Part shown: positions 11,154-24,062 of the stretch, one piece after another
Position numbering within the stretch: the stretch's first letter is position 1
Layout of the letters: each line of letters begins with the position of its first letter
Origin: Actinotalea fermentans ATCC 43279 = JCM 9966 = DSM 3133
GTDB lineage: Bacteria > Actinomycetota > Actinomycetes > Actinomycetales > Cellulomonadaceae
Assembly: GCA_000767215.1 (NCBI GenBank)
Contig: AXCX01000011.1
Coordinates: 1-34,717, forward strand
Direction: 5' to 3'
Length of the DNA: 34,717 nucleotides
Program-made: the position numbers and the translations under genes
The notes under the pieces: model-generated
Databases searched by the model: none
Seen by the model: the letters and a program-made list of their open reading frames with translations, nothing else
What the model was told of the DNA's origin: nothing

Positions 11154-12158
11154 TTGCCTGCTCGCTCCCCGATCGCTCCCATGCGCCTCGCCCGCCGCGA
11201 GGAGGCGCGCGTGCTCGCGCACGCCTGCGCCATCGCGGGCGCCGTCACGGCGCTGACCGTCCTCGCGCCGTTCAGCCCGACGGCGCCGCGCGCTCTCGGC
11301 GCGGCCCTCACGCTGGTTGCGCTGGGGCTCTGGGCGGCGCTGATCCTCGGGGCGGACCGCGTGCGGGCGTGGCAGCTGCACGCCGTGCTGGCCACCGCGA
11401 CGGTGCTCGTCACGGTGGCCCTGGGCGCGTCGACGACGCCGTTCGGCGCGCTCGTGGGCGCCGTCGCCTACGTGTGGATCGCCATCTTCAGCGGCGTCTA
11501 CCACCGGACCACGGTGCTGCTGCGCTACCTCGGGGGCGTCACCGTGGGCCTCGCCGTGGGGTTCTGGCACGCGGGGACGCCGTCCTGGCCGCAGGCGTGG
11601 GCGTTCCTGGCCGCCACGTTCGTGGCGGTCGCGCTGGTGCTCAACCGCCGGGTGAGCGCGCTGCGCCGGGAGGCGATGACCGACCCGCTCACGGGCGCGT
11701 TCACACGACGGGCGTTCGAGCGCGCCGCGGAGCTGGACATGGCCCGCGCGTCGCGCATCGGGATGCCGCTGACTCTCGCGGTCATCGACCTGGACGACTT
11801 CAAGCTGGTCAACGACGCCCACGGCCACGCCCGCGGCGACGAGGTGCTCGTCGGCCTGACGCAGGCGTGGCAGGCGACCCTGCCGCGCGACGTCCTGCTC
11901 GGGCGGCGCGGCGGCGACGAGTTCGTCCTCCTCTTCCCCGGACGCACGCTCGCCGAGGCCGAGAACGAGGTCCGCGCGCTGTCGGACGACCTGTGCGGGT
12001 GGTCCACGGGGCTTGCCCAGTGGGACGGCGGGCGGGACCTCGCGGACCTGTTCGCCGCGGCCGACGCCGACCTGTACGCCTCCAAGCGCGGCGAGACCGC
12101 GGCGGGCCGGGCGTCGTCGTCGGCCGGAGGAATGGGCTCGGAGCCCGCGGCGTTGTGA
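11154..12158 (+). CDS. Membrane GGDEF protein (putative diguanylate cyclase)
   Basis: Makes the second messenger c-di-GMP from two GTP, if active. The 334-aa protein has an N-terminal membrane region of about six hydrophobic segments (25-165) and a C-terminal GGDEF domain starting at TDPLTGAF (176). The signature GGDEF is at 253-257, and the metal-binding DLDDFKLVND segment (212-221) is intact. No RxxD inhibitory site lies at the usual spacing before GGDEF (the sequence is LPRDVLLGRRGGDEF), so product inhibition is probably absent. The start is TTG at 11154 with AAGGA 7 nt upstream. The membrane sensor type is not recognised. It lies between the smpB unit and ssrA. Confidence 0.88.
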   Translation: MPARSPIAPMRLARREEARVLAHACAIAGAVTALTVLAPFSPTAPRALGAALTLVALGLWAALILGADRVRAWQLHAVLATATVLVTVALGASTTPFGALVGAVAYVWIAIFSGVYHRTTVLLRYLGGVTVGLAVGFWHAGTPSWPQAWAFLAATFVAVALVLNRRVSALRREAMTDPLTGAFTRRAFERAAELDMARASRIGMPLTLAVIDLDDFKLVNDAHGHARGDEVLVGLTQAWQATLPRDVLLGRRGGDEFVLLFPGRTLAEAENEVRALSDDLCGWSTGLAQWDGGRDLADLFAAADADLYASKRGETAAGRASSSAGGMGSEPAAL

Positions 12159-12161
12159 CGG

Positions 12162-12167
12162 TAGGCT
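12162..12167 (+). promoter_or_regulatory. Possible -10 element of the ssrA promoter
   Basis: TAGGCT, a good TANNNT hexamer, lies just past the GGDEF gene and about 85 nt before the mature tmRNA 5' end. It would give a precursor with a short 5' leader for RNase P to remove. There is no convincing -35, so this is tentative. Confidence 0.3.
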
Positions 12168-12252
12168 GGAGGACGCTCCGCAGCCGGGTGACCGGCGTCG
12201 GAGGCGGTGCCGCGGTGGGTATGGCGACTGCCGCGGGTTTGACAACTGCACA

Positions 12253-12620
12253 GGGGGTGATCGGTTTCGACGATGGTCGTCGATCCAGGTGAAGCGGGCC
12301 GAGGATGTTGGGTTATCTCGTTAACGCTCCCAGCAAACCTATAGGTGCCGATTCCAAGCGCACCGACTTCGCCCTCGCCGCCTGAGCGAGGCTTCGAAGT
12401 CCGTCAGCCCGAGCTCGCTCTCGTCTCGGTTCCTGGCGTCATCTAGAGAGCCACTGCTCGTAGCCCTCGTCATCGGGGCTGCGGGGACACTCAGATGACT
12501 GGGCCCGTCCGCGACATGTCTGCGTGATCGCGGGGGCCAAGAAAAGCGCAGCAGACTGCGCCCGGAGAAGCCCTGGTTCACTGCCGTCGGACGCGGGTTC
12601 GATTCCCGCCACCTCCACCC
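12253..12620 (+). ncRNA. ssrA: tmRNA (transfer-messenger RNA)
   Basis: Rescues stalled ribosomes with SmpB. The 5' end GGGGGTG (12253-12259) pairs with CACCTCC (12610-12616) to close the acceptor stem, followed by discriminator A at 12617. The T-arm is GCGGG-TTCGATT-CCCGC at 12593-12609, and the 5' tRNA-like part reads GATCGGTTTCGAC. The tag frame at 12347-12385 encodes ADSKRTDFALAA and a TGA stop, so the full degradation tag is AADSKRTDFALAA, ending in the ALAA signal read by ClpXP. The CCA end is not encoded (ACCC follows). The last 25 nt coincide with the left attachment repeat of an integrated island, so the 3' end was rebuilt by the element and still pairs correctly. Confidence 0.96.
12594..12618 (+). 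repeat. attL: 25-bp direct repeat in the ssrA 3' end
   Basis: This sequence, beginning CGGGTTCGATTCCCG and ending CCTCCAC, is repeated exactly at 24038-24062. It covers the T-loop, the 3' half of the T-stem and the acceptor 3' strand of tmRNA, the classic target of tyrosine integrases. Flanking bases differ on both sides (G versus A before; C versus T after), so the identity block is exactly 25 bp. Confidence 0.93.
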
Positions 12621-12654
12621 GTGTGACCTGCGGAAACGCTGGTCATGTTGACAG

Positions 12655-12690
12655 GAAGGTAGTCATCCGTTGACGCGGAGGGCTACCTTC
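12655..12690 (+). promoter_or_regulatory. Inverted repeat over the candidate integrase promoter
   Basis: GAAGGTAG (12655-12662) and CTACCTTC (12683-12690) form an 8-bp stem around a 20-nt loop. The right arm contains TACCTT, a TANNNT -10 that would start transcription at about 12696, next to the integrase GTG at 12698. It could be an operator for integrase, a weak terminator for ssrA (TTGTGTTGT follows), or both. Confidence 0.4.
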
Positions 12691-12697
12691 TTGTGTT

Positions 12698-13894
12698 GTG
12701 GCGAGCATCCGGGAGCGTCGGCGTGCCGATGGGACGCGGTCGTTCGCTGTGCTGTGGCGCGACCCCGACACCGGGCGGCAGACGTCGCTGACGTACGACG
12801 ACGAGCGGGATGCGCGGGTTGCGCGGGAGCTGATCGAGGCCGCCGGCGGGCGGGCCGACGAGGCCGCACGGATCGCCGAGGCGGTGCGGAAGCCTGGGCC
12901 GACCGTTGAGGCCGCGATCACGGAGCACATCGACTTGCTGACCGGGGTCGGGGCCGATACGCGCTCGCACTACCGCGGGCAGCTGCGTTCGCACATCGCG
13001 CCTGCGCTCGGGGCTCTGCCCGTGTCTGCGGTGACCTACCGGCATGTGGCCGGGTGGGTGCGCGCGATGACCGAGAAGGGCCTCTCCCCCAAGACGATCG
13101 CCAACGTGCACGGGCTGCTGTCCGCGGCGATGACGACGGCCGTGCGGCTCGGGTACCGGGCGGACAACCCCTGTGTCGGCGTCGAGCTGCCGAAGTCGGT
13201 GGCGACGCGTGACGAGATGACGGTGCTGACGCGCGACGAGTTCGGGCTCCTGCTGTCGAAGGTCTCGGCGCACTACCAGCCGCTGGTACTGACACTGGTG
13301 GCGACCGGGCTGCGCTGGGGCGAGGCGACGGCGCTCACGGCCGGGGATGTGGACCTGTCGGCACGGCCGGCGACGGTGCGCGTGACGAAGGCGTGGAAGC
13401 GGGATGCCGACCGGCGCTGGTACGTCGGGCCGCCCAAGACGAAGCGCGCACGGCGGACGGTGTCGCTGCCCGACGACCTGGTCGACGTGCTGCTGCCACT
13501 CGTGGCCGGCAAGGCGCCCGACGAGCTGCTCTTCACCAACACCGTCGGCTCGCAGATCTCGTCGTCGCGCTTCTGGACGACGACGTGGACTCCGGCGCTC
13601 GACGCCGCCTGCAGCCCGCGGCTCGCCGACGGCTCCCCCGACCCCGACGCACCACGACTGACCAAGCGGCCGCGCGTGCACGACCTCCGCCACACCCACG
13701 CATCGTGGATGATCGCCGCCGGGACGGACCTCTTCGTTCTCCAGCGTCGCCTGGGCCACGAGTCGATCACCACGACAACGGAGACCTACGCCCACCTGCT
13801 CCCCGACCAGCAGCGCGCGGCCGCCGACGCCGCGGGGCGTGCACTCGGCGGATTGGCGTTGCGCCGCCGTGGGGCCGATCTCGGTCGCTGGTAG
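12698..13894 (+). CDS. Site-specific tyrosine integrase of the island
   Basis: Catalyses integration and excision at ssrA. The 398-aa protein has an N-terminal arm-binding region (about 1-60: RADGTRSFAVLWRD), a core-binding SAM-like domain (about 68-155) and a catalytic domain (about 175-375). The active-site set is complete: R206 in TGLRWGE, probable K247 in PPKTKR, H328 and R331 in HDLRHTH, H354 in LGHES and the nucleophile Y364 in TYAHL. It starts at GTG 12698 without a ribosome site, next to a -10, so it may be leaderless. Its place beside attL and its orientation into the island are usual. The protein looks functional, so the element may still be able to excise. Confidence 0.96.
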   Translation: MASIRERRRADGTRSFAVLWRDPDTGRQTSLTYDDERDARVARELIEAAGGRADEAARIAEAVRKPGPTVEAAITEHIDLLTGVGADTRSHYRGQLRSHIAPALGALPVSAVTYRHVAGWVRAMTEKGLSPKTIANVHGLLSAAMTTAVRLGYRADNPCVGVELPKSVATRDEMTVLTRDEFGLLLSKVSAHYQPLVLTLVATGLRWGEATALTAGDVDLSARPATVRVTKAWKRDADRRWYVGPPKTKRARRTVSLPDDLVDVLLPLVAGKAPDELLFTNTVGSQISSSRFWTTTWTPALDAACSPRLADGSPDPDAPRLTKRPRVHDLRHTHASWMIAAGTDLFVLQRRLGHESITTTTETYAHLLPDQQRAAADAAGRALGGLALRRRGADLGRW

Positions 13895-13904
13895 ACCAGG
13901 CGGG

Positions 13905-14369
13905 TCAGGCCGCGAACGGCGCCCCACACACCAGGCAGTACAACCGCGCGGTGGCTGCCTCGGGAACCTTCACCGGCTCATTGGGGTGGCACGGCGGCTC
14001 GACGATGATCATGTCGTCGGGCTCGACCAGCGGATCCGGGGTCGGTGTGCCAAGACCGAAGTCGGCGTTCTGCCTAAACGTCACACCTCTGATGCCTCTG
14101 AACGCGTCGCCGATGGACTCCCTGATCACGCGATCGATCTCGGGCGCAGCCACTCCTTGCATGTACGCCAGTTGCGCTGGCGTCCACCACGAATCACAGC
14201 CAGCCGGTACACCACAGAGCGGGCAGAAGTACTGCTCAGCTACCTCGGCATCCGGATCGCCTTCATCGTGACTGAACCACTTGAACTCCCCCTCGCAGGT
14301 AGGGCACTCGCGTCGGAGGAACCCGTCGCTGTCGAGCGGGATGCTCACCGGGACGCTGAAGTCGTCCAT
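13905..14369 (-). CDS. Double zinc-ribbon protein, partner of the TIR-like gene
   Basis: Not recognised as a named family. The 154-aa protein has cysteine pairs C22-C25 (CPTC) and C49-C52 (CPLC), which would form one zinc ribbon. A C-terminal second set has C127 followed by C145-C148 (CLVCG). Between them lies an acidic helical region with the segment WWTPAQLAYMQGVAAPEIDRVIRE. There is no membrane segment or signal peptide. Its ATG is 3 nt after the stop of the TIR-like gene (TAG GCC ATG), so it is translated from the same mRNA. The tight pairing suggests a sensor, adaptor or regulator of the TIR-like protein; that is inference. Confidence 0.7.
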   Translation of the reverse strand: MDDFSVPVSIPLDSDGFLRRECPTCEGEFKWFSHDEGDPDAEVAEQYFCPLCGVPAGCDSWWTPAQLAYMQGVAAPEIDRVIRESIGDAFRGIRGVTFRQNADFGLGTPTPDPLVEPDDMIIVEPPCHPNEPVKVPEAATARLYCLVCGAPFAA

Positions 14370-14372
14370 GGC

Positions 14373-15890
14373 CTATCCGTTCAGATCTAGGAAGACATCC
14401 TGGGTGAAGATCGCGCCGGCGTCTGTCCGGGCCGACACGGACACGTCGAACGCGGCGGTCCCCTGCCTGCCGCCCAACAACCGGCTCCGGTTCATGACGT
14501 CGATCGTCACTGACTTTCCACCGCCAGGGATCTTGGGGATGCCCTCATGGCGCATGAGATCAAGCGCCGCATCCTCGGGAACTGAGAGCGTCACGTCGTA
14601 GGCGACCTCGGTCCCCCGGTTGACGATCTGCAGCTTGTCGACATGGTTGCCGCCCCTGCTGAAGTACTTGACGTCGAAGTCAATCGGTGGGCGGATCGTT
14701 GTTGCGGCGGGAACACGGCGCCCCAGGGGCAGTCCTTCGCCGGGGGGACTCGGAGCCGTGAAGTCCCCCGCGGAGTGCCAATCGGTACCGCTGAGGTTCA
14801 CCGCACAACCAGCCGTCTCGAGACGCTTGGCCAGTTCCTGGCGACGCTTGAGGTCGTTGGAGAGCCTCACGACGTGGCGCCCGGCGACGTCGCTGAACGG
14901 ACGGACGGAGCCCACTTCGACGAGCACAGTACGGCGTGCATCGCGGCCCAAGGCCATTCCGGCTTCGAACAAGACGTTGGGGCGTGCCTGCGGAGCCGGG
15001 GCGATCTCGGGGTCGTCCGCACCGCTCCCGTACCGCGGTTGAAGGTAGGCGACCTCGTCAGGCGTCAGGAGGACGACGACGGCAGTCGCCCGGTCGAAGG
15101 CCACGTCCAGGACCTGCCCGATGTACGGCGACCCATCGCCGGTCCACTCGACTGCCGTCGTCCACTCCATGGGCGAGAGATCGATGCTCCGCAAGAAGTC
15201 GAACATCGACCGTCGCAGCGCCTCATTGCGCCCATGCACCACGAACACCTGGCGCCCGCCCGCCGCAGGACCTCGCTCGTCTTCCCGAGGCATGGCACCG
15301 ACGCTAGCGCGCTGACCAGAGCCGGGTAGCGCGCCCACACCGCTCACCGCCGCATCGCGCGCTAGGTAGTCCGCCAGATCTCGCACGCCGCGGAAGGGGC
15401 GAAGGCCCTTTCTGCGGAGAAGGATCTTCCAGTCCCCTTCACCCTGACCTTTCGAGAAGCCCAGCCATAGCCCGCCCACGGTCTCCCACAACAGGGCCTG
15501 GCGCGCGAGCATGCTGGCGCGCCCCGCCGCCGGCAGTCTCACGTGTCTAGCAAGGTCTTCTGGGGTCAGCAGGACGTCATCCGAAGGAGGGCTGTCTTGC
15601 GCCAGCTGAGCGGCATAGCGAACGCCCTCGACGAAGATCGCCGCGTCCTCGGCTGCCTCCGGGCACTGAGCAAGTCCCTCGATGGTCAAGGCGATCTTCT
15701 GGTCGTCGGGCGGTTCATGTGCGCCCGCGCCCCAGAGAAGCCGCCGGTCGAGCTTGCTGACCTCCCCCCACGGGTCTTCGAGGCCCAGCGTTCGGTCAAG
15801 CTCGTAGTCGACCTCGCTCCAGGTCGGCCACCGGTCATGCCGCGTAAATAGCCGAAAGATGGCCTCAAGAATCTGCTGGGCCCCAGCCAC
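14373..15890 (-). CDS. TIR-like nucleotide-binding protein, candidate anti-phage effector
   Basis: A 505-aa protein with three parts. Residues 1-205 are a helical region of unknown family with an insert starting LTPEDLARHVRLP. Residues 214-364 match the TIR-like domain of the CAP12/Pycsar-effector type (PF10137): VFVVHGRNEALRRSMFDFL, then VVVLLTPDEVAYL, then ARPNVLFEAGMALGR. The glutamate in NVLFEAG (E309) sits where these TIR domains have the catalytic NADase residue. Residues 401-505 look like a beta-sandwich (KLQIVNRGTEVAYDVTLSVP). GTG 15890 was chosen because GGAGG lies 7 nt upstream; the frame also has a GTG at 15974 with a poor ribosome site. It forms an operon with the zinc-ribbon gene. 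NAD cleavage after phage sensing is inferred from the domain. Confidence 0.8.
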   Translation of the reverse strand: MAGAQQILEAIFRLFTRHDRWPTWSEVDYELDRTLGLEDPWGEVSKLDRRLLWGAGAHEPPDDQKIALTIEGLAQCPEAAEDAAIFVEGVRYAAQLAQDSPPSDDVLLTPEDLARHVRLPAAGRASMLARQALLWETVGGLWLGFSKGQGEGDWKILLRRKGLRPFRGVRDLADYLARDAAVSGVGALPGSGQRASVGAMPREDERGPAAGGRQVFVVHGRNEALRRSMFDFLRSIDLSPMEWTTAVEWTGDGSPYIGQVLDVAFDRATAVVVLLTPDEVAYLQPRYGSGADDPEIAPAPQARPNVLFEAGMALGRDARRTVLVEVGSVRPFSDVAGRHVVRLSNDLKRRQELAKRLETAGCAVNLSGTDWHSAGDFTAPSPPGEGLPLGRRVPAATTIRPPIDFDVKYFSRGGNHVDKLQIVNRGTEVAYDVTLSVPEDAALDLMRHEGIPKIPGGGKSVTIDVMNRSRLLGGRQGTAAFDVSVSARTDAGAIFTQDVFLDLNG

Positions 15891-16101
15891 TCCTCCCCCT
15901 CCACCCAATGGCACGTACGGCTGCAAGTGCGGGCTCCACCGGAGGCCTTGCCGCCGTTGGTGATCTTCCCTCACCTACCCGACATGGCGCAGCGGTCCCG
16001 CGGGCTCCTCTTGCTCGCAGCAGCCGCACCGGCGACTCGATGCGCTCGACCCGGCCGAAAGTCCCCTGTTACGTTCCCCCCGACGTCGGTCGACAGAATA
16101 T

Positions 16102-16115
16102 GTCGCCTGTGCGAC
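16102..16115 (+). promoter_or_regulatory. Possible operator before the HTH/NTase pair
   Basis: GTCGC-CTGT-GCGAC is a short inverted repeat 9 bp before the ATG at 16125, in the intergenic region shared with the divergent TIR-like operon. The encoded HTH protein may bind here. The arms are only 5 bp, so this is tentative. Nothing else was recognised in 15891-16124. Confidence 0.3.
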
Positions 16116-16124
16116 TATTTATGG

Positions 16125-16796
16125 ATGACGCAGATGGCCACGAGTGCTGCGGCTGAGCGGCTGGGTGTTTCCCAGCGCCAGGTGCAGCGTCTCATCGAAA
16201 CCGGACGGTTGCCGGCGACGCGCACGGCGGGTGACGTGTGGGTCGTCGACGCTCTCGCCGTCAACGCTTTGGCCCGAACGCGTCCCGAGCGGGGTCGTCC
16301 GTGGTCCCCAACTACGGCCTGGGCAGCGCTGTGGCGGCTCTCCGGCCTCGACGTCGACTGGCTCGACAGGCGCACGGCCAGGCGTCTTGACGACCGGCTC
16401 GCGTCCATCGACGCCGAGGAGCTCGTGCACGCGGCCCGACGCCGCGCATCAGTCCGCCGCTACCGGGCGAGCGAGTCGTTCCTCGCTGAACTCGACGCGT
16501 CCGTCATCCGCACCGGCGCCCGTGCGACGGAGCCGTCCCGGTTCGCCCTGGACCGGGACCTCAGTCGCGTTGACGGCTATTGCACGAGTGAGGTCGCGGC
16601 TCGGCTGGTACGCGACTTCCACCTCGCTGAGGATCCGCGCGGGAATGCCACCCTGCGGGTAGCCGCCGCGCCGAGCTCGGTCATGGAGGGACGGGACACG
16701 ATGCCCGTCGCCGTCATCGCGGCAGACCTCGCAGAGTCGCTCGAGGTCAGGGAGCGGTCGGCTGGCTTCCGCGTGCTCGAGGAACTGCTGCGATGA
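16125..16796 (+). CDS. HTH DNA-binding protein, putative antitoxin of an NTase pair
   Basis: A 223-aa protein whose N-terminus is an excisionase/MerR-like helix-turn-helix (about 4-42: ATSAAAERLGVSQRQVQRLIETGRLPATRTAGDVWVVDA). The remaining 180 residues are Arg-rich and helical, with no recognised domain. Its stop overlaps the ATG of the nucleotidyltransferase gene by 4 nt. An HTH protein coupled to a minimal nucleotidyltransferase is the layout of AbiE-like toxin-antitoxin modules, in which the HTH partner represses the operon; that role is inferred. The start is ATG 16125, with a second in-frame ATG at 16134; neither has a strong ribosome site. A longer reading from 15927 is unlikely because its N-terminus has no resemblance to a folded domain. 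Confidence 0.75.
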   Translation: MTQMATSAAAERLGVSQRQVQRLIETGRLPATRTAGDVWVVDALAVNALARTRPERGRPWSPTTAWAALWRLSGLDVDWLDRRTARRLDDRLASIDAEELVHAARRRASVRRYRASESFLAELDASVIRTGARATEPSRFALDRDLSRVDGYCTSEVAARLVRDFHLAEDPRGNATLRVAAAPSSVMEGRDTMPVAVIAADLAESLEVRERSAGFRVLEELLR

Positions 16797-17560
16797 CGAC
16801 TCTGCGCGTCATCGCACCGCCTGGCGGATGGGCGCCACCGTGGCCCGTCGTCATCGAGATCGCCTCCGTGCTGCCACCAAGGTCGTGGGTGCTCGTCGGC
16901 GGGCTCATGGTGCAGCTGCATGCGCGGGCGGCCGGCGTCGAAGGGGTCCGCCCGACGCGTGACGTCGACGCGCTCATCGATGTCATGGCCGCTGGCGTCA
17001 GCATGGCCGGAATCACAGGAGCGCTCACGGCCCGCGGATTCGCGGTCGTCGAGCCCGGCTGGCCAGAGTCACCGGTCCACCGTCTCCGGCGCGATGGCGA
17101 CGTCATCGACGTTCTCGTCGCCGACCACCTGCCAAGGCACGCCCAGCCGCGCCTGCACCGCCGTCCCGTCATGGCCATTGACGGCGGCGCCCAGGCCCTC
17201 GCCCGCACTCAGCAGGTCGTCATCGAGCACGAAGGCGGCACGGTCGAGGTGGCGGTGCCGGACCTGCTCGGCGCCCTCGTCCTCAAGGCGGCCGCGCACA
17301 TCGCCGACCGGCGGGATCGAGAGCGGCACCTCAGGGACGCTGGGCTCCTCGCATCCCTGATCGCTGACCACCGACGCGAACTTGGGCGCCTCCAAGGCTC
17401 CGATCGCAAGCGCCTGCGTCATCTCGCGGAAGCGCTCAGCGACCCTCTCGACGACGCATGGCTCCTGCTGCCCGATGACGCGCGCCAACGCGGCCAGGAC
17501 ACACTGCGCATCCTCTCCACATACCCCGCCCGAGCCGCGGCCCCGGAACCACGCTACTAG
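16793..17560 (+). CDS. Nucleotidyltransferase-fold protein, AbiEii-like putative toxin
   Basis: A 255-aa protein with the minimal nucleotidyltransferase signature. GG at 36-37 (WVLVGGLMVQLHA) is followed by TRDVDALID with the metal-binding pair D57 and D59, and a third acidic residue, D106, lies in DGDVIDVLVAD. The C-terminal half is helical and basic (KAAAHIADRRDRERHLRD), as in AbiEii and related toxins that nucleotidylate tRNA or other targets. Its ATG overlaps the HTH gene stop (ATGA), so the pair is translationally coupled. Known AbiE systems cause abortive infection. The catalytic fold is well supported; toxicity and target are inference. Confidence 0.8.
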   Translation: MTTLRVIAPPGGWAPPWPVVIEIASVLPPRSWVLVGGLMVQLHARAAGVEGVRPTRDVDALIDVMAAGVSMAGITGALTARGFAVVEPGWPESPVHRLRRDGDVIDVLVADHLPRHAQPRLHRRPVMAIDGGAQALARTQQVVIEHEGGTVEVAVPDLLGALVLKAAAHIADRRDRERHLRDAGLLASLIADHRRELGRLQGSDRKRLRHLAEALSDPLDDAWLLLPDDARQRGQDTLRILSTYPARAAAPEPRY

Positions 17561-17569
17561 GGGCGCCGG

Positions 17570-19987
17570 CTACTTGGCCGTGCCGATCCAGGCGAAGAAG
17601 TCCTCGGCAGAGAAGACGGGCTTCTCGAGCTCCTTGGCCTTGCGGGCCTTTCCTGATTGCGTACCCACCTCGGCCACCACCAATGCGTCGCACCTCGACT
17701 TCGTCACGGATGACACGGGCACGAGGCCGCGGGCAGCGGCAGCCGCGTTCATCTGATCCCGATCCCAGGTGACGCCACGGGCGTCGACGGCGGTGCCGGT
17801 GAAGCACACTCGCGCTCCCCGGCAGAGGACTTCGTCAATGGCGCCGCGGCCCACGGTCGTCGCGGCCACGATGGCGTCGACGACCGCGATGCCCAGCACG
17901 CCCTCGAGCACGCGCAGTCGGGCGAGCAACTCGGCGGGTAGCGCGGTGGTCCGCGCAGCGGCCGCCATCAGGCGCTCGGCGACGACGTCGCGTACAACGG
18001 CCGCCACCGCGGCGTCCGCAGTGGCACCCGCCCCGACGGGAAGTGAAGCCCGCCCGAGGAGCACACCGCTCAACAGGCGGCTCGTGTCCATGAGCGCGGA
18101 CAGCGTGGGCATCGCCGCGCTCGCCGGTGCCTGAGCGTCACCGTCGCGAGTGAGGAGGTACGCCGCGCCCGATGTCGGCCCAACGTCATCCTGCTCATCG
18201 AGGCTGCTCGCGTCGAACACGGAGCCGCCCGAGGCGTCGATCCCCGTTCGCTGCGCCACCCGCATCGCGGCGCGAGCGCGGGCGAGCGCCGTGGGCTCGG
18301 CCAACGCCTGTCGCTCTTCGGCCCGGAGTCCCGTTGGGGGGATCTCGATGCCGAGCGGCAGTGGCACCACGAGCCCGAGCCGCTTGAGCTCGAAGTCGAT
18401 GAGCGAGAGTGTGTCGTCGATCTCCAGCCCGACTGGCACACAGCCGTCAAGCAGGGGCGCGATGGCGAACCACACCTCCGCCAAGGTCGGCGACAGAAGC
18501 ACGTCGTCGACCGTGACGCCGTAGGCGGTACGGGCATCGTCAAGGTCCCGCTGCGGGTTGACGAGCGTGCTGATCGCGGAGCCGTCGTCGAACGCGACGG
18601 CCAGCTCGACCGGGCGGGGCCGTGACATGCGCCCTTCCATGCCAACGGTGAGGATGCTGATGGCGCACAGCCTCAGGGTGCGATCGGGCGCCGTGGACGC
18701 CCGGAGGAACCGCAAGACCCGTCGGTCGGTCTTCAGGTCCTTGGGCAGCACGGGCCGCGTGAGCACGAGCCCGTCCATCGACGTACAGCGGCTCAGCGCC
18801 ACGTACACCTGCCCGTAGTCGAACGCCCCGCCCCGAAGGTCGACGACCAGCCGGTCCATCGTCTGGCCCTGGCTCTTGTGGATGGTGATGGCCCAGGCGA
18901 GCTTCAGCGGGAGCTGCGTGTAGGCGCCGACGACCTCACGTCGCAGGGTGCCGCCGTGGATGACAGGACGCGTCGCCTCCCAGGTGTGAGGCCGCACTTC
19001 GGCACTCGTGCCGTCCCGGAACTCGACCTTCACGGCGAGCCCGTCGTCGTCGTGCCAGAGCTCGGTGACCTTGCCGAGCGTCCCGTTGACCCAGCGGTCC
19101 GCGGAGTCGTTGTTCAGCAACATGACCTGGGCGCCGACCTTCAGCTCCACGACCTTCTCGACCGGCGGGTCGAACAGACTCAGATCCCCGGACTCAACCG
19201 CGACGTGCACGACGCCGTCCCCGGGCAGGCGCTCGAGGTGCTGCCGGTTGCGTGCCGTGACGACCCTGTTCGTCGGAGCGAGAGTGAGCCAGAACTCGTC
19301 GTCGGGCGGCTCGAACTCCGCGTCGGTGCGCGCGTTCAGCTCCGTCCGGGCGCGCTCGACCAAGACGCCCTCGCGGACGGCGTTCAGCAGACCCGTGAGC
19401 CGCTGGTCCCCGAGCTGCCGGAACACCGTCGTCAGGGCGACAGTCGGGAAGTCGTCACGGGAGAACCGGTCGGCCGAGAAGAAGTAGGGCGTGGCGTATC
19501 GGGTCTCGAAGAACTCCTTCTCGTCCTCGGGTACGACTGGCGGCAGCTGGAACAGGTCGCCTACCAACACCACCTGGACACCACCGAATGGGGCGCCCCG
19601 TCGCGGGCCGAACCGCTCGAGCGCCGCAACGAGCATGTCGAACAGATCGGCACGCACCATCGAGGCTTCGTCGAGGATGAGCGTGTCCAGTGAGGCGAGC
19701 GTCGCGCCGAAGCGGCCGGGGCGGTAGTCACCGTCCAGCACTGCGCCCAGATCCGTTGTCGCTGTGAAGCCGAAGAGCCGGTGGATCGTATAGCCGTCGA
19801 CGTTCAATGCAGCGATACCTGTTGGCGCGGCCACGACCACGCGCCTCTTCGTCGTCGCCATGAAGTGACGGATCAGGGTCGACTTGCCTGTGCCGGCCTT
19901 CCCGGTGAGGAACAGGTTGCGCCCCTCGTCGAGCAGTGTCAGGGCATGCCTGAACTCGTCCGTGATGATGATCGGTGCGTCAGCCAT
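17570..19987 (-). CDS. Pif1-type helicase with degenerate DnaQ-like domain and C-terminal BRCT
   Basis: An 805-aa superfamily 1B helicase fusion. The helicase part (1-430) has Walker A GKAGTGKST (29-37), DEAS (106-109), VGDLFQLPP (142-150), TTVFRQ (186-191), TIHKSQGQT (368-376) and YVALSR (395-400), so it should unwind DNA with 5'-3' polarity. Residues 440-545 follow the 3'-5' exonuclease fold pattern (STLVNPQRD, YGVTVDDVLLSPTLAEVW, FELKRLG), but the DxE of ExoI reads as ISILTVG and the ExoII Asp is not at its place, so this domain is probably non-catalytic. A helical linker leads to a BRCT domain (722-805: RVCFTGTAV to FSAEDFFAWIG). ATG 19987 has GGAG 6 nt upstream; the frame extends to 20128 without a better start. 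A role in DNA repair, element maintenance or defence is possible. Confidence 0.88.
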   Translation of the reverse strand: MADAPIIITDEFRHALTLLDEGRNLFLTGKAGTGKSTLIRHFMATTKRRVVVAAPTGIAALNVDGYTIHRLFGFTATTDLGAVLDGDYRPGRFGATLASLDTLILDEASMVRADLFDMLVAALERFGPRRGAPFGGVQVVLVGDLFQLPPVVPEDEKEFFETRYATPYFFSADRFSRDDFPTVALTTVFRQLGDQRLTGLLNAVREGVLVERARTELNARTDAEFEPPDDEFWLTLAPTNRVVTARNRQHLERLPGDGVVHVAVESGDLSLFDPPVEKVVELKVGAQVMLLNNDSADRWVNGTLGKVTELWHDDDGLAVKVEFRDGTSAEVRPHTWEATRPVIHGGTLRREVVGAYTQLPLKLAWAITIHKSQGQTMDRLVVDLRGGAFDYGQVYVALSRCTSMDGLVLTRPVLPKDLKTDRRVLRFLRASTAPDRTLRLCAISILTVGMEGRMSRPRPVELAVAFDDGSAISTLVNPQRDLDDARTAYGVTVDDVLLSPTLAEVWFAIAPLLDGCVPVGLEIDDTLSLIDFELKRLGLVVPLPLGIEIPPTGLRAEERQALAEPTALARARAAMRVAQRTGIDASGGSVFDASSLDEQDDVGPTSGAAYLLTRDGDAQAPASAAMPTLSALMDTSRLLSGVLLGRASLPVGAGATADAAVAAVVRDVVAERLMAAAARTTALPAELLARLRVLEGVLGIAVVDAIVAATTVGRGAIDEVLCRGARVCFTGTAVDARGVTWDRDQMNAAAAARGLVPVSSVTKSRCDALVVAEVGTQSGKARKAKELEKPVFSAEDFFAWIGTAK

Positions 19988-20153
19988 CACCGGCTCCGTC
20001 GCCGCGTGAGCGTCCACCGCAGCTCGCTCGTCACCTGGCCTCGCACCAGCTCCACCCTCTCCACGCCCCAGGGGGACGCGAGCAACATAGCGACGGGAAT
20101 GATCCCCCGGAGGAAGAATCGACGCCAAGCACGCGCCATCCGGCGACGCAGGG

Positions 20154-20182
20154 CGTCATCGTCCCCGTCAATGACGATGACG
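20154..20182. terminator. Hairpin between the small HTH gene and the helicase gene
   Basis: CGTCATCGTC (20154-20163) and GACGATGACG (20173-20182) form a 10-bp perfect stem with a 9-nt loop. The right arm lies within three tandem ATGACG units (20171-20188). It follows the stop of the minus-strand HTH gene by 41 nt and could terminate or attenuate transcription into the helicase gene. There is no U-tract. Nothing else was recognised in 19988-20222. Confidence 0.4.
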
Positions 20183-20222
20183 ATGACGCATGCGCAGACG
20201 GCGCCCGGGAGGCAGACACCGC

Positions 20223-20534
20223 CTAGAACAGCCGCCCGTCCCCCTGCACGTGCGGCCGACGCCGATGAGCGCGCACCGACTTCGCCGTCGGGCCGAGTGC
20301 CGTCAGGTCCGATGACGCCGCGGCGGCCGGAGCCCGAGCGTCATCGGCCACGCCGCCATCGACGGTGTACAGCGCGACGAGGGCGTCGACGTGCTCGGGC
20401 AGCAGCCGGATCCTGCCCTTGGCCAGGCGCAGGTGCGGGATCCGCCCGCGTCGCGCCTGCTCGCGCACCCACCACGGCGACATCCCCAGGGTCTTGGCGA
20501 CCTCCTCGGGGGTCAGAGTCACGTACTCGGTCAT
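20223..20534 (-). CDS. Small HTH protein, excisionase-like
   Basis: A 103-aa protein with an N-terminal helix-turn-helix of the excisionase/MerR group (about 6-46). TPEEVAKTLGMSPWWVREQARRGRIPHL is the HTH and RLAKGRIRLLPEHVDALV is the wing and dimer helix. The C-terminal half is Ala/Asp-rich and basic at the end, with no domain. ATG 20534 gives an N-terminus that begins right at the HTH; a longer frame from 20600 adds 22 residues and overlaps the upstream gene. In this island it could be the excisionase that controls the direction of the integrase reaction, although it lies 6 kb from the integrase gene, or simply a local regulator. Confidence 0.7.
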   Translation of the reverse strand: MTEYVTLTPEEVAKTLGMSPWWVREQARRGRIPHLRLAKGRIRLLPEHVDALVALYTVDGGVADDARAPAAAASSDLTALGPTAKSVRAHRRRPHVQGDGRLF

Positions 20535-20596
20535 CGCTGCACCGCCCTTCTGCTCGCTTTCACCGACAGGTATGCGGAATGCCGGAGAAGATGTGG

Positions 20597-21040
20597 TCAA
20601 CGCCCGAACTGCTGTGGATCACGGGGGTCCTGGCGGATCCCGTGGGCACCGCTCACATCGCCGAAGCGCTGACGGGCACCCTGCCGACTGATCCCCAACG
20701 CCCGCCCGACCTGCGCCCAGCTGGCCCCATCGACCCGCAGGTGGGCGACGGCGATCTCGACCTCCTCCTCGAGCCCATCGACCACGCGCCGAGCCTCCGC
20801 GCGCGCAGCAGCGAGCTCCCTCAAGTCGGCAAGTGCGTCCGTCACCCGCGCCGCAGCCCGCCAGGCGACGTCGTACTCCTGCAAGCCGCCGACGACGCCG
20901 TCGGGTGCCACCTCGGGCGCCTCCGGGCCCGTTGAGGCAAGCGGTACGACAGCGATCCCGAATGCCGCGCCCGACGACGGCACGGGCCTCCCTAGCCGGT
21001 CCACGTGCCGGCTCGCCCGGACCCGACTCCCCTTGCCCAT
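20597..21040 (-). CDS. HTH-containing protein of unknown function
   Basis: A 147-aa protein with a basic N-terminus (GKGSRVRASRHVDRLGRPV), a coiled helical middle with acidic and Arg residues (LADLRELAAARAEARRVVDGLEEEVEIAV, about 72-98) and a C-terminal helix-turn-helix (107-127: SWAQVGRALGISRQGARQRFG) resembling a sigma-70 region 4 type fold. Such proteins are common in actinobacterial chromosomes and plasmids without an assigned role. ATG 21040 has AGAAGGGGG just upstream, which decides the start over 21097. It lies 62 nt upstream of the excisionase-like gene on the same strand, so the two may form an operon. Confidence 0.65.
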   Translation of the reverse strand: MGKGSRVRASRHVDRLGRPVPSSGAAFGIAVVPLASTGPEAPEVAPDGVVGGLQEYDVAWRAAARVTDALADLRELAAARAEARRVVDGLEEEVEIAVAHLRVDGASWAQVGRALGISRQGARQRFGDVSGAHGIRQDPRDPQQFGR

Positions 21041-21930
21041 GGCGCCCCCTTCTCCCTGCTCCTGCCTGCGCTGCGACCCGACGGCGTGGGACTCCACTAC
21101 CTCTAGGTCTGCGACAGCAGACGAGGGCGAAGTCGGTCACGCACACGACGCCAGACTCCTCACGCCCGATAGCCGGAGCGATGACGAATTGGCGTCGCCG
21201 CCGATGACGGGAAGCAAATGCGATGACGGCGCTCCTGGGCACCGGCCTCGTCATCACATCGGTGGCGCCTCAGCGCCCGTGGACCCGAGCGATCAGTGCG
21301 GCCGCGGCCTCCGTCAGCCGGGACGGCCCGAGCGAGTGAGGCCGAGCGGTGCCTGCATGAGCGAGGGGGTCAAACCGCGCTGCGGCATCCTGGCGGCGCT
21401 ATGGCCTGGGCTGATGGCCGAGCTCGCAGGGCAGATTTCGCACGTCATCGCTGTTCGACGCCCGCTGGGCAAACACCTGCACGTCGTAGGACAACGCTCC
21501 TCCTCGAGCCGCTCGTGGTCGTAGGGCGCGGTACTCCGTCCAAGAACCGCCGGCCGACTGAGCGAGGACACGTCGCACGGCGGCAACCAGGGTTGTCGAG
21601 ACAGGGACGAAGAGGACCGGACTCCTCTGGCACCGCCGGCAACCGCAGTTGCCGCACGAGATCTCAACCACGACGCAGCCGCCGGCGAACGCTACCGACT
21701 GCCGCCACGGCGAGGCACTGACTGACCTGCGCGAGACCGAAGCCGACCGCCGTTCACACAATGAGGACCCGCCGTCGCCCCTTGAGTGTCGGCATGCGCA
21801 CCAGCCCGAGACAGGAGCGCATCGCCCAACCACGGTCTCGCCAGCGGCGTGTCATATGGACAGCCAGGCCGGTGCCTGCCAATCTCTGCCCAGGCACCGT
21901 GAGCGGGCGTCACGTCGATTAAGGAACACA
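21041..21930. other. 890-bp stretch without a convincing gene
   Basis: Several overlapping open frames exist on both strands, but none has a recognisable domain, a ribosome site or a codon pattern like its neighbours. They are rich in Arg, Ser, Cys and Pro, as expected of chance frames in GC-rich DNA. One minus-strand frame (21399-21833) contains a CGNCGCRRC cluster that could be a decayed zinc-binding gene. The stretch separates the minus-strand HTH genes from the plus-strand DUF262 gene, so divergent promoters should lie here; none was identified with confidence. Confidence 0.5.
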
Positions 21931-23745
21931 ATGGCCAGCGAATCTGATGTCAACGTCCGTTCCTTTAGCATCCAGCAGATCTACGACCTTTACCGGCGCG
22001 ACCGTTTCAGCGTTAACCGCCGATATCAGCGGAAACTCGTCTGGAGCGTGGAAGAGAAGCGCCGATTGATCGACTCTGCGATGAAGCAACTGCCGATCCC
22101 GCTGTTCCTTGTTGCGGAGAAGACGGGGGAGGTCCTCAGTGAGTTTGAAGTCATCGACGGGCTCCAGCGACTCAACGCAATAATCTCGTTCATCGAGAAT
22201 GAGTATGGAATCGACGGTGGTTACTTCAACCTGGAAGCCCTCGCCGACACGAAAGACCTCAAGGACCGAGGTGAGCTCGCGCAGCGGGAACCAGTGCTCG
22301 GTCGCGACGACTCGCGGCGCTTTACCAACTACACCACGGCCCTCTCCGTGTTCCGAAGCGACAGCGCCGAGGTCATTGATGAGGTGTTTCGCCGCATCAA
22401 TTCGAGTGGCAGGAAGCTGTCCTCGCAGGATCTTCGGCAAGTCGGATCGATGTCGGGACTCGCGTCACTCGTTCGGGAACTGTCCGCGCAAGTTCGAGGC
22501 GACGCATCCCGTACCGATCACGTTCCTCTATCAGCCATGTCGCGCCTCAGCATCTCCAACAACGACCTGAAGTACGGCATCGATGTCGACTCCATCTTCT
22601 GGGTCAAGCAGGGGATTCTCAACCGGGAACTGGTTCGCTCTTCGCGAGACGAGGAAGTCGTCCTTGACCTCCTTGGCGACATACTGAGCTCCACGACACC
22701 CACTAGCAGCGCCAAAGCTCGGGACGCATTGTTCAACTTCACCAGCACAGACAACGCCGAACCGACAAAGCAGTCGGTCGAAGTCGAGTCCGCCATCCTC
22801 GCCCGCACCCCTGACGGGGTGCGGGAGGACTTTGAACGGGCGTTTGACGAGCTTCGGCGGATCATCGACGCGGGCGGCGAAAGGTTCTGCGACCTTATCG
22901 GGATTGGCTCAGGAAATCCGATCCCGCGGTACTTCCACTGCGCATACATGGCCGTGTTCGAACTCACCGTCGAGGATGGGCGGGAGTTTAGCGACTACGC
23001 ACTTGCCGCGAACCAGATTCGCGGCAAGTACAATCGCTTCGGAGTACAGGGAAGTGGCGGCGACTGGAGTTCGGCAAACAAGCTCGATGCGATCGGGGCG
23101 GTCAAGTCGCTGCTTCATCGCGCAACGGTCGCCAGTGCCAACGGGGCGAGTGCCACACACGGGCGAGCTTCTTTCGTGGAAAGGGTGCTCTCGAACAGCC
23201 GAGTAGAGCACCAGTTGTTCGAGTTGAAACAAGGCTTCTTGCTTCTTGAGCCAGGAGCGTCCGATTCGAAGCCCATGGTTCAGAAGATCGCACGGACCGC
23301 GACGGCGATTGCCAACACGGCGCCACCCACACCCGGGTTCATCGTTGTCGGGATCGCCGAAAAGCGAGGCGACGCCGAACGAGTCCTGGAGATCGACGGA
23401 GTGCCTTCGGTCGCTTACGCGGAGTTCAACGTTGTCGGACTCTCCCGCGAGGCAAGACGCGTCGCAAACCGGTCGCTGGCCGACTACTGGGACTCGGTCG
23501 TTCGTCAGCTGCGGATGACAGATGGGCTTGACCCCGAGTTGGCTCAGTCGCTCACGAACAAGATGCACCTCGTGCCGTACCACGGCCTCGAAGTTGCCGT
23601 GATCGAAGTGGTCCCAGGCACTCGGCCCTACTTCTTCGGCACTGAACTCCTGGAACGAAGCGGCTCCGAGACCGTTGTGGTACCGCAAGCGAACTACCAC
23701 TCGGTGTACCAGCGGTTCGCCGCGGCGGCCGGCGTGACGGCCTAG
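21931..23745 (+). CDS. DUF262 (GmrSD-like) protein fused to a Schlafen/AlbA_2-like domain
   Basis: A 604-aa protein with two recognisable parts. The N-terminal DUF262/ParB-fold region has a Pro-free version of the YQRxxVW element (RRYQRKLVWSVEEKRRLIDS, 30-49), the nucleotide-contact motif D76-G-L-Q-R80 (usually DGQQR) and EVFRRINSSGRKLSSQDLR (151-169). Such domains hydrolyse NTP in the GmrSD and BrxU defence nucleases. The C-terminal part (about 422-600) follows the AlbA_2/Schlafen pattern: VEHQLFELKQG, then TATAIANTAPPTPGFIVVGI. No HNH nuclease domain is seen where GmrD would be. ATG 21931 has AAGGA 5 nt upstream; a longer frame from 21649 lacks similarity. Third codon positions use more A and T than chromosomal genes nearby. 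A defence role is inferred. Confidence 0.85.
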   Translation: MASESDVNVRSFSIQQIYDLYRRDRFSVNRRYQRKLVWSVEEKRRLIDSAMKQLPIPLFLVAEKTGEVLSEFEVIDGLQRLNAIISFIENEYGIDGGYFNLEALADTKDLKDRGELAQREPVLGRDDSRRFTNYTTALSVFRSDSAEVIDEVFRRINSSGRKLSSQDLRQVGSMSGLASLVRELSAQVRGDASRTDHVPLSAMSRLSISNNDLKYGIDVDSIFWVKQGILNRELVRSSRDEEVVLDLLGDILSSTTPTSSAKARDALFNFTSTDNAEPTKQSVEVESAILARTPDGVREDFERAFDELRRIIDAGGERFCDLIGIGSGNPIPRYFHCAYMAVFELTVEDGREFSDYALAANQIRGKYNRFGVQGSGGDWSSANKLDAIGAVKSLLHRATVASANGASATHGRASFVERVLSNSRVEHQLFELKQGFLLLEPGASDSKPMVQKIARTATAIANTAPPTPGFIVVGIAEKRGDAERVLEIDGVPSVAYAEFNVVGLSREARRVANRSLADYWDSVVRQLRMTDGLDPELAQSLTNKMHLVPYHGLEVAVIEVVPGTRPYFFGTELLERSGSETVVVPQANYHSVYQRFAAAAGVTA

Positions 23746-24037
23746 GCCCAGTGCTGGAGACGACGCGGGGGGCACGACCCTAGTCACGGCTGGACTGGCG
23801 ATGGCGAAGGGGCCGACGCCCACCGTGCTGCTTCCGGCATATGCACGAGCGGCTCCTTTGGCTGCCTTCAGCCGTCGCCACAGAAGAGCCGGTAAGCCCT
23901 TGCGACCCCGGAACCCGCTCCGGGCGCTTGCGTTGACGCCGTCAACAGCCAAGGCCGACTGAACCGTCGCCACCGATGGCGTTCCGCGCGCTCCCGCAGA
24001 TCAGGGCCCTGCACCTCTAGTTCGCAACACATCCCGA
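23746..24037. other. Non-coding right end of the island
   Basis: No gene is supported here. A short stem (CCCGGA at 23907-23912, TCCGGG at 23919-23924) could end transcription of the DUF262 gene. A small inverted motif or decayed coding sequence cannot be excluded. Minus-strand frames that run through attR are reading the tRNA-like repeat and are not taken as genes. Confidence 0.4.
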
Positions 24038-24062
24038 CGGGTTCGATTCCCGCCACCTCCAC
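24038..24062 (+). repeat. attR: 25-bp direct repeat of the ssrA 3' end
   Basis: Exact copy of 12594-12618. It holds only the 3' part of the tmRNA T-arm and the acceptor 3' strand; the rest of a tRNA-like structure is absent upstream, so it is the displaced target fragment and not an RNA gene. Sequence to its right (TGTGCAACC) should be the original chromosomal flank of ssrA. Confidence 0.93.

Follow-up and report, generated by a model that had tools for sequence, protein, structure and literature searches.

The DNA analysed here, a window of 34,717 nucleotides from Actinotalea fermentans ATCC 43279 (contig AXCX01000011.1), carries at 21931-23745, on the forward strand, a gene in which a DUF262 (GmrSD_N) domain, a helical linker and a Schlafen/AlbA_2 domain are joined in one chain of 604 amino acids (aa). 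The open reading frame (ORF) runs uninterrupted for 604 codons from an ATG at 21931 to a stop codon ending at 23745, and a TAAGGA sequence 5' of the ATG is a putative ribosome-binding site. The original prediction for this gene, made from the letters of the sequence, proposed a different effector placed on a known sensor, and the motifs that it quoted are all present: RRYQRKLVW (residues 30-38), DGLQR (76-80), FRRINSSGRKLSSQ, FELKQG and AIANTAPPTPGFIVVGI.

Relatives were gathered by scanning genome contigs with an alignment of seven sequences, which gave 423 pattern stretches and 315 relatives; the best 80 of the 315 were kept, and viral contigs contributed 39 more. Of the resulting 119 loci, 105 were tested, the other 14 being partial or duplicate viral copies. 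Eleven of the 105 were set aside for stops in the matched frame (seven with one stop, four with many), whilst the remaining 94 are open over 578-652 aa, and these colinear relatives rule out a chance ORF. The alignment used for conservation holds 91 sequences (L062, L089, L099 and L136 are omitted), 81 rows of which made up the Pfam set and 70 the C-terminal-domain set. At E <= 0.1, GmrSD_N was found in 81/81 and SLFN_AlbA_2 in 76/81 (best E 2e-10), and the fusion therefore constitutes a colinear family.

The DUF262 N-terminus is clear in the window protein itself. GmrSD_N (PF03235), a ParB/Srx-type domain, covers residues 17-169 (21979-22437, +) with E 8.7e-21 and 75.4 bits, above the Pfam cut-off of 33.2, and includes the motifs NRRYQRKLVW, IDG[L/M]QR and VFRRIN. 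The (I/V)DGxQR motif of the nucleotide pocket is kept: D76, G77, Q79 and R80 are invariant in the 91 aligned sequences, as are F153, R155, N157 and G160. The DGLQR that had been singled out as a departure from DGQQR is indeed present, but it is not peculiar to this protein, since residue 78 is M in 64/91 and L in 27/91 of the family and not Q. Residues 170-407 (22438-23151, +) are mostly helical in a model of the whole protein (AlphaFold2 with 91 sequences; predicted local distance difference test, pLDDT, 93.0; predicted template-modelling score, pTM, 0.91) and have no Pfam match in the window protein. The fusion was said to lack an HNH nuclease, and this held: none of the HNH-like [DE]HxxP motifs tested for occurs in the window protein, or past residue 250 in the 91 aligned members, and DUF1524 is not among the Pfam families listed for the 81.

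The Schlafen/AlbA_2 domain occupies residues 408-604 (23152-23742, +). Its own Pfam match (SLFN_AlbA_2, PF04326, residues 447-566) is weak when taken alone, with E 0.0062 and 17.5 bits, below the cut-off of 25.3; the matches of the relatives and the comparison of folds lift the assignment above chance. Comparison of folds was needed because sequence matches to the Protein Data Bank (PDB) are weak; a profile of the whole protein gave two there, 2mwg (E 0.0015) and BrxU (E 0.0024). In VIA-align, residues 409-602 of the whole model align with SAMD9 (Z 10.0-11.0) and DIP2311 (11.0). When the domain is modelled alone (pLDDT 96.2), its best row is DIP2311 with Z 11.5, followed by SAMD9 with Z 10.3-11.3 over 154-156 residues, and the Schlafens SLFN5, 11, 12, 13 and 14 align with Z 6.1-7.6. 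Schlafen or SAMD9 appears in the titles of 15 of the 19 best rows (Z 11.5-6.1), two rows bear just the title 'DNA/RNA binding protein', and the others are DIP2311 and a RecG-related protein, both of which we take to be AlbA_2 proteins; the first unrelated row below them is a methyltransferase with Z 4.7. With Pfam matches in 76/81 relatives and this agreement in fold, the predicted AlbA_2 C-terminus has been borne out, and the confident model gives residues 408-604 the AlbA_2/Schlafen fold. A stretch of 9ylu 'CbCash' (297 aa, solved) that resembles AlbA_2 was also matched weakly by the C-terminal profile (E 0.61); it is possibly another bacterial Schlafen.

Within this domain lies a putative active site. 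E426, position 431 (E here) and K433 (23206-23229, +) are each kept in 91/91, with D (63/91) or E (28/91) at 431, and a putative third acid, E477 (23359-23361, +), is D in 84, E in 6 and N in 1 of the 91. The acidic triad and the lysine are thus jointly conserved in 90/91 sequences, and the wholly invariant residues of this half are E426, K433, G435, G474, G503 and R576. In SLFN13, cleavage of transfer RNA (tRNA) requires E205 and E210, mutants of which are inactive on tRNA, and D248 to a lesser extent (PMC5862951). Translation shut-off by SAMD9L requires E198 and D243, which were mutated together, and the third acid there is E186 (PMC11221667). Spacing and motif suggest that the residues of the window protein pair with these catalytic acids.

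The nearest known designs share one half of the protein or the other. The restriction enzymes GmrSD and BrxU are likewise single chains with an N-terminal DUF262 domain, an IDGxQR motif and a helical middle. BrxU is the only Foldseek match of the whole model at E <= 0.001, and residues 7-397 align with it in VIA-align (Z 8.3, root-mean-square deviation, rmsd, 12.2 over 272), whereas rigid superposition is poor (template-modelling (TM) score 0.18; rigid-body rmsd 11-18 A) and the C-terminal DUF1524/HNH part of these enzymes is replaced by AlbA_2 in the window family. Residues 1-162 match the DUF262 fold of SspE (Z 8.5), which couples a nucleoside triphosphatase (NTPase) to a C-terminal nuclease (PMC10952713); unlike SspE, the window protein has no DUF1524, and no Ssp or Dnd model was found in the ten window ORFs scanned. 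The PADLOC models NsnA, which we take to be Menshen, and PD-T4-2_A also match the DUF262 part (E 4.7e-30 and 9.2e-22), but they span 385 and 363 positions and only residues 6-186 of the window protein match them. In Menshen the partner is a predicted OLD nuclease (PMC10952713). No such operon was seen for the window family: no further Nsn model occurs in the ten window ORFs and no cluster of neighbours in more than 9/94 loci.

On the effector side, SAMD9 and SAMD9L of animals resemble the window protein in the aligned AlbA_2 domain, in the acidic triad and in the logic of a sensor joined to AlbA_2; their sensor, a P-loop ATPase and repeats in SAMD9, differs from DUF262. The N-domains of the Schlafens share the fold, the match falling on the region of their C-lobe, and the E-x4-[DE] spacing, but form a pseudo-dimer of two lobes where the window protein has one, and a dimer would therefore be needed. 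The same family appears in PHROGs as phrog_26759, a full-length model of listed unknown function (residues 11-581, E 9.7e-70). The PADLOC candidate PDC-S50 matches 28/70 of the C-terminal domains (best E 4.3e-8) and 12/81 whole proteins at E <= 0.001, and no model spanning the whole fusion was found in the PADLOC and NCBIfam scans of the family.

The distribution of the gene is patchy. The full-length gene occurs in 1/19 genomes of the genus, the window's own (G398 has a weak match to DUF262 only), and although 56/396 genomes of the order match, the match is near full length in four, the window genome and three others, each from a different family. A housekeeping gene, fixed in the genus, is ruled out by these counts. 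In a tree of 73 rows seven phyla are represented, as judged from the record titles (the row L043, titled Rhodococcus, was filed under Cyanobacteriota by its name), and the rows cluster by phylum with some mixing, many of them being metagenome bins. The tree shows 16 label changes against a minimum of six, which is no proof of transfer. In the window genome itself, another contig (C603, L172) encodes a second DUF262 protein in an open frame of 428 aa, with 27% identity over residues 6-187. It lies about 5 kb from a 93-bp stretch that is 92% identical to the window sequence just past the right end of the island described below, and there is no transfer-messenger RNA (tmRNA) gene in the 18 kb examined around it.

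Plasmids are frequent carriers. There are 696 matching plasmid records (partial matches included), 524 of them typed conjugative, and in 144 one place covers at least 80% of the query, although in at least one of these (H7) the copy is in two pieces with a transposase between. Of 5,426 E. coli genomes 803 match the plasmid copy, with 862/890 matching places on plasmids; 105 hold at least 80% of the gene in one place, some still interrupted (H71, H72), and 698 hold less. In 25 E. coli records taken at even ranking steps the whole gene was seen in 4 (two in pieces), nucleotides 1-1284 in 11, 1276-1773 in 7 and less in 3, the parts being annotated as separate proteins. Plasmid R100 (NC_002134) carries such a split homologue, at 16231-17514 (L037) and 11994-12491 (L218), equivalent to nucleotides 1-1284 and 1276-1773 of 1773. 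Each half adjoins a copy of IS1 at the ends of a stretch holding mer, sul1, aadA1 and catA1, and the two overlap by 9 nucleotides, as expected for IS1 target duplication; the break falls at the AlbA_2 active-site stretch, whilst other plasmids carry uninterrupted copies.

In IncF plasmids the homologue adjoins pemIK, and in R100 the DUF262 gene comes after pemK. The idea that it might be tir of R100, the gene for inhibition of RP4 transfer, is rejected: two papers give the order tir-pemI/K-ycdA-ycdB, or place tir beside pemIK, and a CPBP protein is annotated in R100 as the product of the gene immediately ahead of pemI, which by its position would be tir.

Relatives are also found on contigs of P2-like phages. 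A scan of viral contigs with the window protein alone gave no match, and it was the profile that found the 39. In five of these contigs (L120, L121, L132, L135 and L136) the gene lies between gpA-like and gpQ-like genes, 47-525 bp from gpQ; PHROGs named the gpQ of L121 (portal) and the gpA of L136 (nicking at the origin of replication), the others being identified by similarity to these, and the gpA of L121 is a fragment lying where its contig ends. In E. coli P2-like phages the region between gpA and gpQ was reported to be a hotspot of anti-phage genes (Rousset et al. 2022, PMC9122126), and the main text of that paper contains none of the terms DUF262, AlbA, Schlafen and GmrSD.

In the window the gene is the last of an 11.4-kb integrase-bearing island (12594-24062) at the tmRNA gene ssrA (12253-12619, +; ARAGORN). 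The island is bounded by a perfect direct repeat of 25 bp, attL within the 3' end of the tmRNA (12594-12618, +) and attR at 24038-24062 (+). The site is empty in one of 18 genus relatives, G398, where the two flanks, once joined, give a single continuous alignment (positions 1-462 of 484, 86%); in the others the alignment ends at the tmRNA end or up to 3 bases from it, except in one cut contig, where it ends sooner. The att core recurs as short copies of 22-27 bases, perfect or almost so, in five genomes (G263, G396, G403, G407 and G410), eight of them in G403, and because several lie within about 30 kb of the tmRNA they suggest that its 3' end is an island hotspot in the genus. The fusion gene had been placed at the right end of a defence-like island with more A/T-rich codons, and its composition agrees: its G+C is 59.9%, against 69.1% in the rest of the island and 71.7% and 73.6% in the flanks, and its third-position G+C is 73.5% compared with 78-91% in six other island genes.

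The other genes of the island begin with a tyrosine integrase (12698-13894, +; Phage_integrase E 7.8e-22; phrog_1). Beyond it a protein of 533 aa (14373-15974, -) has a central TIR domain of the CAP12/PCTIR type at residues 242-372 (PF10137 E 1e-24; PADLOC PDC-S35 E 1e-17), and this candidate effector is likely to be a second defence gene of the island. An overlapping pair follows, comprising an HTH_17 gene (16125-16796, +; E 2.9e-7), which also resembles mad1, and a gene with no Pfam match at E <= 0.01 (16793-17560, +), presumably nucleotidyltransferase-like from its motif. The pair looks like a toxin-antitoxin or abortive-infection pair. An ORF of 852 aa (17570-20128, -) encodes a PIF1/Dda-like helicase; its C-terminus has a match to PDC-S48 and a weak one to NAD-dependent DNA ligase, which points to a BRCT-like end. 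The last two, before the fusion gene, are an excisionase-like helix-turn-helix (HTH) protein (20223-20600, -; phrog_1840 E 2.3e-8) and an HTH DNA-binding protein (20597-21097, -; phrog_686 E 1.3e-8).

Around the 94 open loci, neighbouring ORFs of at least 70 aa were clustered by BLAST. No cluster occurs in more than 9 of the 94, and three, an ATPase, a methylase-like protein and an integrase, reach nine loci each; the ATPase presumably resembles UvrA. The methylase-like neighbour has 311 aa and lies at a median distance of 3 kb in L092, L108, L119, L120, L122 and L133-L136. No conserved operon partner is found among these clusters, and because of this the fusion protein probably acts alone; the gene looks like a lone cargo gene. 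Its patchy distribution and its carriage by mobile elements (the island, plasmids and the P2-like slot) are found for anti-phage defence genes too.

What is shown here is one chain, colinear across many phyla, that combines a DUF262 domain in which the nucleotide-pocket motif is intact with an AlbA_2 fold in which the triad is conserved; its sequence, its model and its conserved residues all agree with the idea of a different effector on a known sensor. The protein is best read as a single-gene abortive defence protein under nucleoside triphosphate (NTP) control, in which DUF262 would sense infection and release a Schlafen-type ribonuclease (RNase), a reading to which we give a probability of roughly 0.6. 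The use of NTP is expected from membership of the DUF262 family, and that of an RNase from kinship with SLFN13 and SAMD9L. In the resting cell, DUF262 and the helical middle might keep the AlbA_2 lobes separate or obstructed. Binding of a cue of infection to the DUF262 half, either a phage protein or DNA that is modified or in some other way foreign, would change the nucleotide state and dimer geometry of that half. Changes of this kind have been described for BrxU, whose dimer becomes a monomer on NTP binding, and for SspE, in which recognition of modified DNA triggers the NTPase; in both, DUF262 acts as an NTPase, and a nuclease at the C-terminus is coupled to it (PMC10952713). Two AlbA_2 lobes would then form a competent nuclease and cleave tRNA, or perhaps ribosomal RNA, so that translation would stop before the phage matured; both the cue and the RNA target are guesses. 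Fusions of HEPN domains to ParB/DUF262 are a precedent for an RNase effector with DUF262 (PMC3710099), and a suicidal back-up role in BREX loci has been suggested for RNases of the Schlafen family (PMC12839542). Given these precedents, the coupling in BrxU and SspE and an AlbA_2 domain with a conserved triad in the place of the nuclease, a sequence of sensing, release or assembly of the RNase and arrest of translation is the most likely one.

Several observations weigh against this proposal. The Schlafen rows have Z values below 8, at which VIA-align warns that common arrangements may be responsible, although SAMD9 and DIP2311 lie above 8, and Foldseek TM-scores of the C-terminal domain are about 0.5 or less, which makes it a distant member of the AlbA_2 fold. 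The best PDB sequence match of the C-terminal profile is the blue-light photoreceptor 2mwg (E 0.0043), which is not an AlbA_2 protein. The spacing of the triad agrees with neither model enzyme throughout: the interval 426-431 is 5, as in SLFN13 but not in SAMD9L (12), and 431-477 is 46, near that of SAMD9L (45) and not that of SLFN13 (38). SLFN5 binds tRNA without cleaving it (PMC11221667), so AlbA_2-type domains can be binders only. No match at 80% coverage was found in 50,697 phage records, and on the viral contig L118 a gpQ (portal) match lies 7.4 kb away with no gpA match, which puts that copy outside the gpA-gpQ slot as far as can be seen. The neighbouring genes give no clear defence enrichment. 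In a matched case-control comparison of 20 of 22 genomes, 138 ORFs neighbouring the 20 loci matched 43 PADLOC models and 133 control ORFs six, counted per model and not per protein; 25 of the 43 are mainly reverse-transcriptase models with one member each, which look like one retron, plus PRTase and PDC-S02. In 25 of the 71 Pfam families of the neighbours (case set alone) ordinary genes prevail, with RadC 2, Mrr_cat 2 and IS66 transposase 1. Finally, no activity, phage or growth data for any family member were found in the literature searched.

The same domains could serve other ends. The protein might be a type IV-like restriction enzyme, with DUF262 reading modified phage DNA and AlbA_2 standing in for HNH to nick or cut that DNA. 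The AlbA_2 domain of SAMD9 has been solved bound to DNA (7ksp), and the methylase-like neighbour, present in 9/94 loci, looks by its motif like a DNA adenine methylase. GmrSD, BrxU and SspE themselves act on modified DNA (PMC10952713). Against this, the characterised fold relatives that share the triad are RNases, and no neighbour is found in more than 9/94 loci; we consider a DNA-cutting effector unlikely. A role with no nuclease at all is distinctly less probable again: both domains would bind DNA and repress or exclude rival plasmids and phages, making the protein a factor that regulates mobile elements or acts in competition among them. Its frequent carriage on plasmids typed conjugative fits this idea, as does the non-Schlafen nature of two good structural matches, DIP2311 and 2kyy, whereas conservation of E426, D/E431, K433 and D/E477 in 90/91 sequences would hardly be necessary in a protein that does nothing but bind.

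Least probable, and in our estimate very unlikely, is an addiction gene, a toxin carried by plasmids and islands, that has no antiviral role. The adjacency to pemIK in IncF plasmids would suit it, and a costly effector would be expected to leave interrupted copies such as those of the 698/803 E. coli genomes with less than 80% of the gene in one place, in which the usual breakpoint falls within the effector domain. The shared breakpoint, however, suggests one inherited insertion over repeated loss, and the neighbour clusters include no conserved antitoxin-like gene.

Both domains, and a part in defence for each, are already known, but their combination as a family appears to be undescribed within the literature searched. 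Among the papers listed in full-text searches, none names a DUF262-Schlafen or DUF262-AlbA_2 protein in its title or the start of its abstract. A survey of GmrSD proteins from 2015 reports the extra domains DUF4268, DUF4357 and DNA_binding_1, and the word 'Schlafen' does not occur in that paper (PMC4619093). A preprint by Taboada et al. (2025, cited in PMC12839542), by its title on bacterial Schlafens in phage defence, may cover the DUF262 fusion.

The fusion shows a known restriction sensor joined to a quite different effector, and AlbA_2/Schlafen is one of the few nuclease types that occur in antiviral proteins of bacteria and animals alike. Found on IncF plasmids, on contigs of P2-like phages and in seven phyla, the family is frequent enough to matter for the phage resistance of ordinary strains, and with the uninterrupted copies that E. 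coli plasmids carry the defence idea can be tested directly in a laboratory strain. A wider proposal, which we hold tentatively and at somewhat less than even odds, is that this is a pan-bacterial one-gene immune family and the counterpart in design of SAMD9, in which a DUF262 NTPase would sense foreign nucleic acid, license a Schlafen-type tRNase by dimerisation and shut down translation without cutting DNA. If true, this would link the sensing of type IV restriction to that branch of antiviral immunity in animals which cleaves tRNA.

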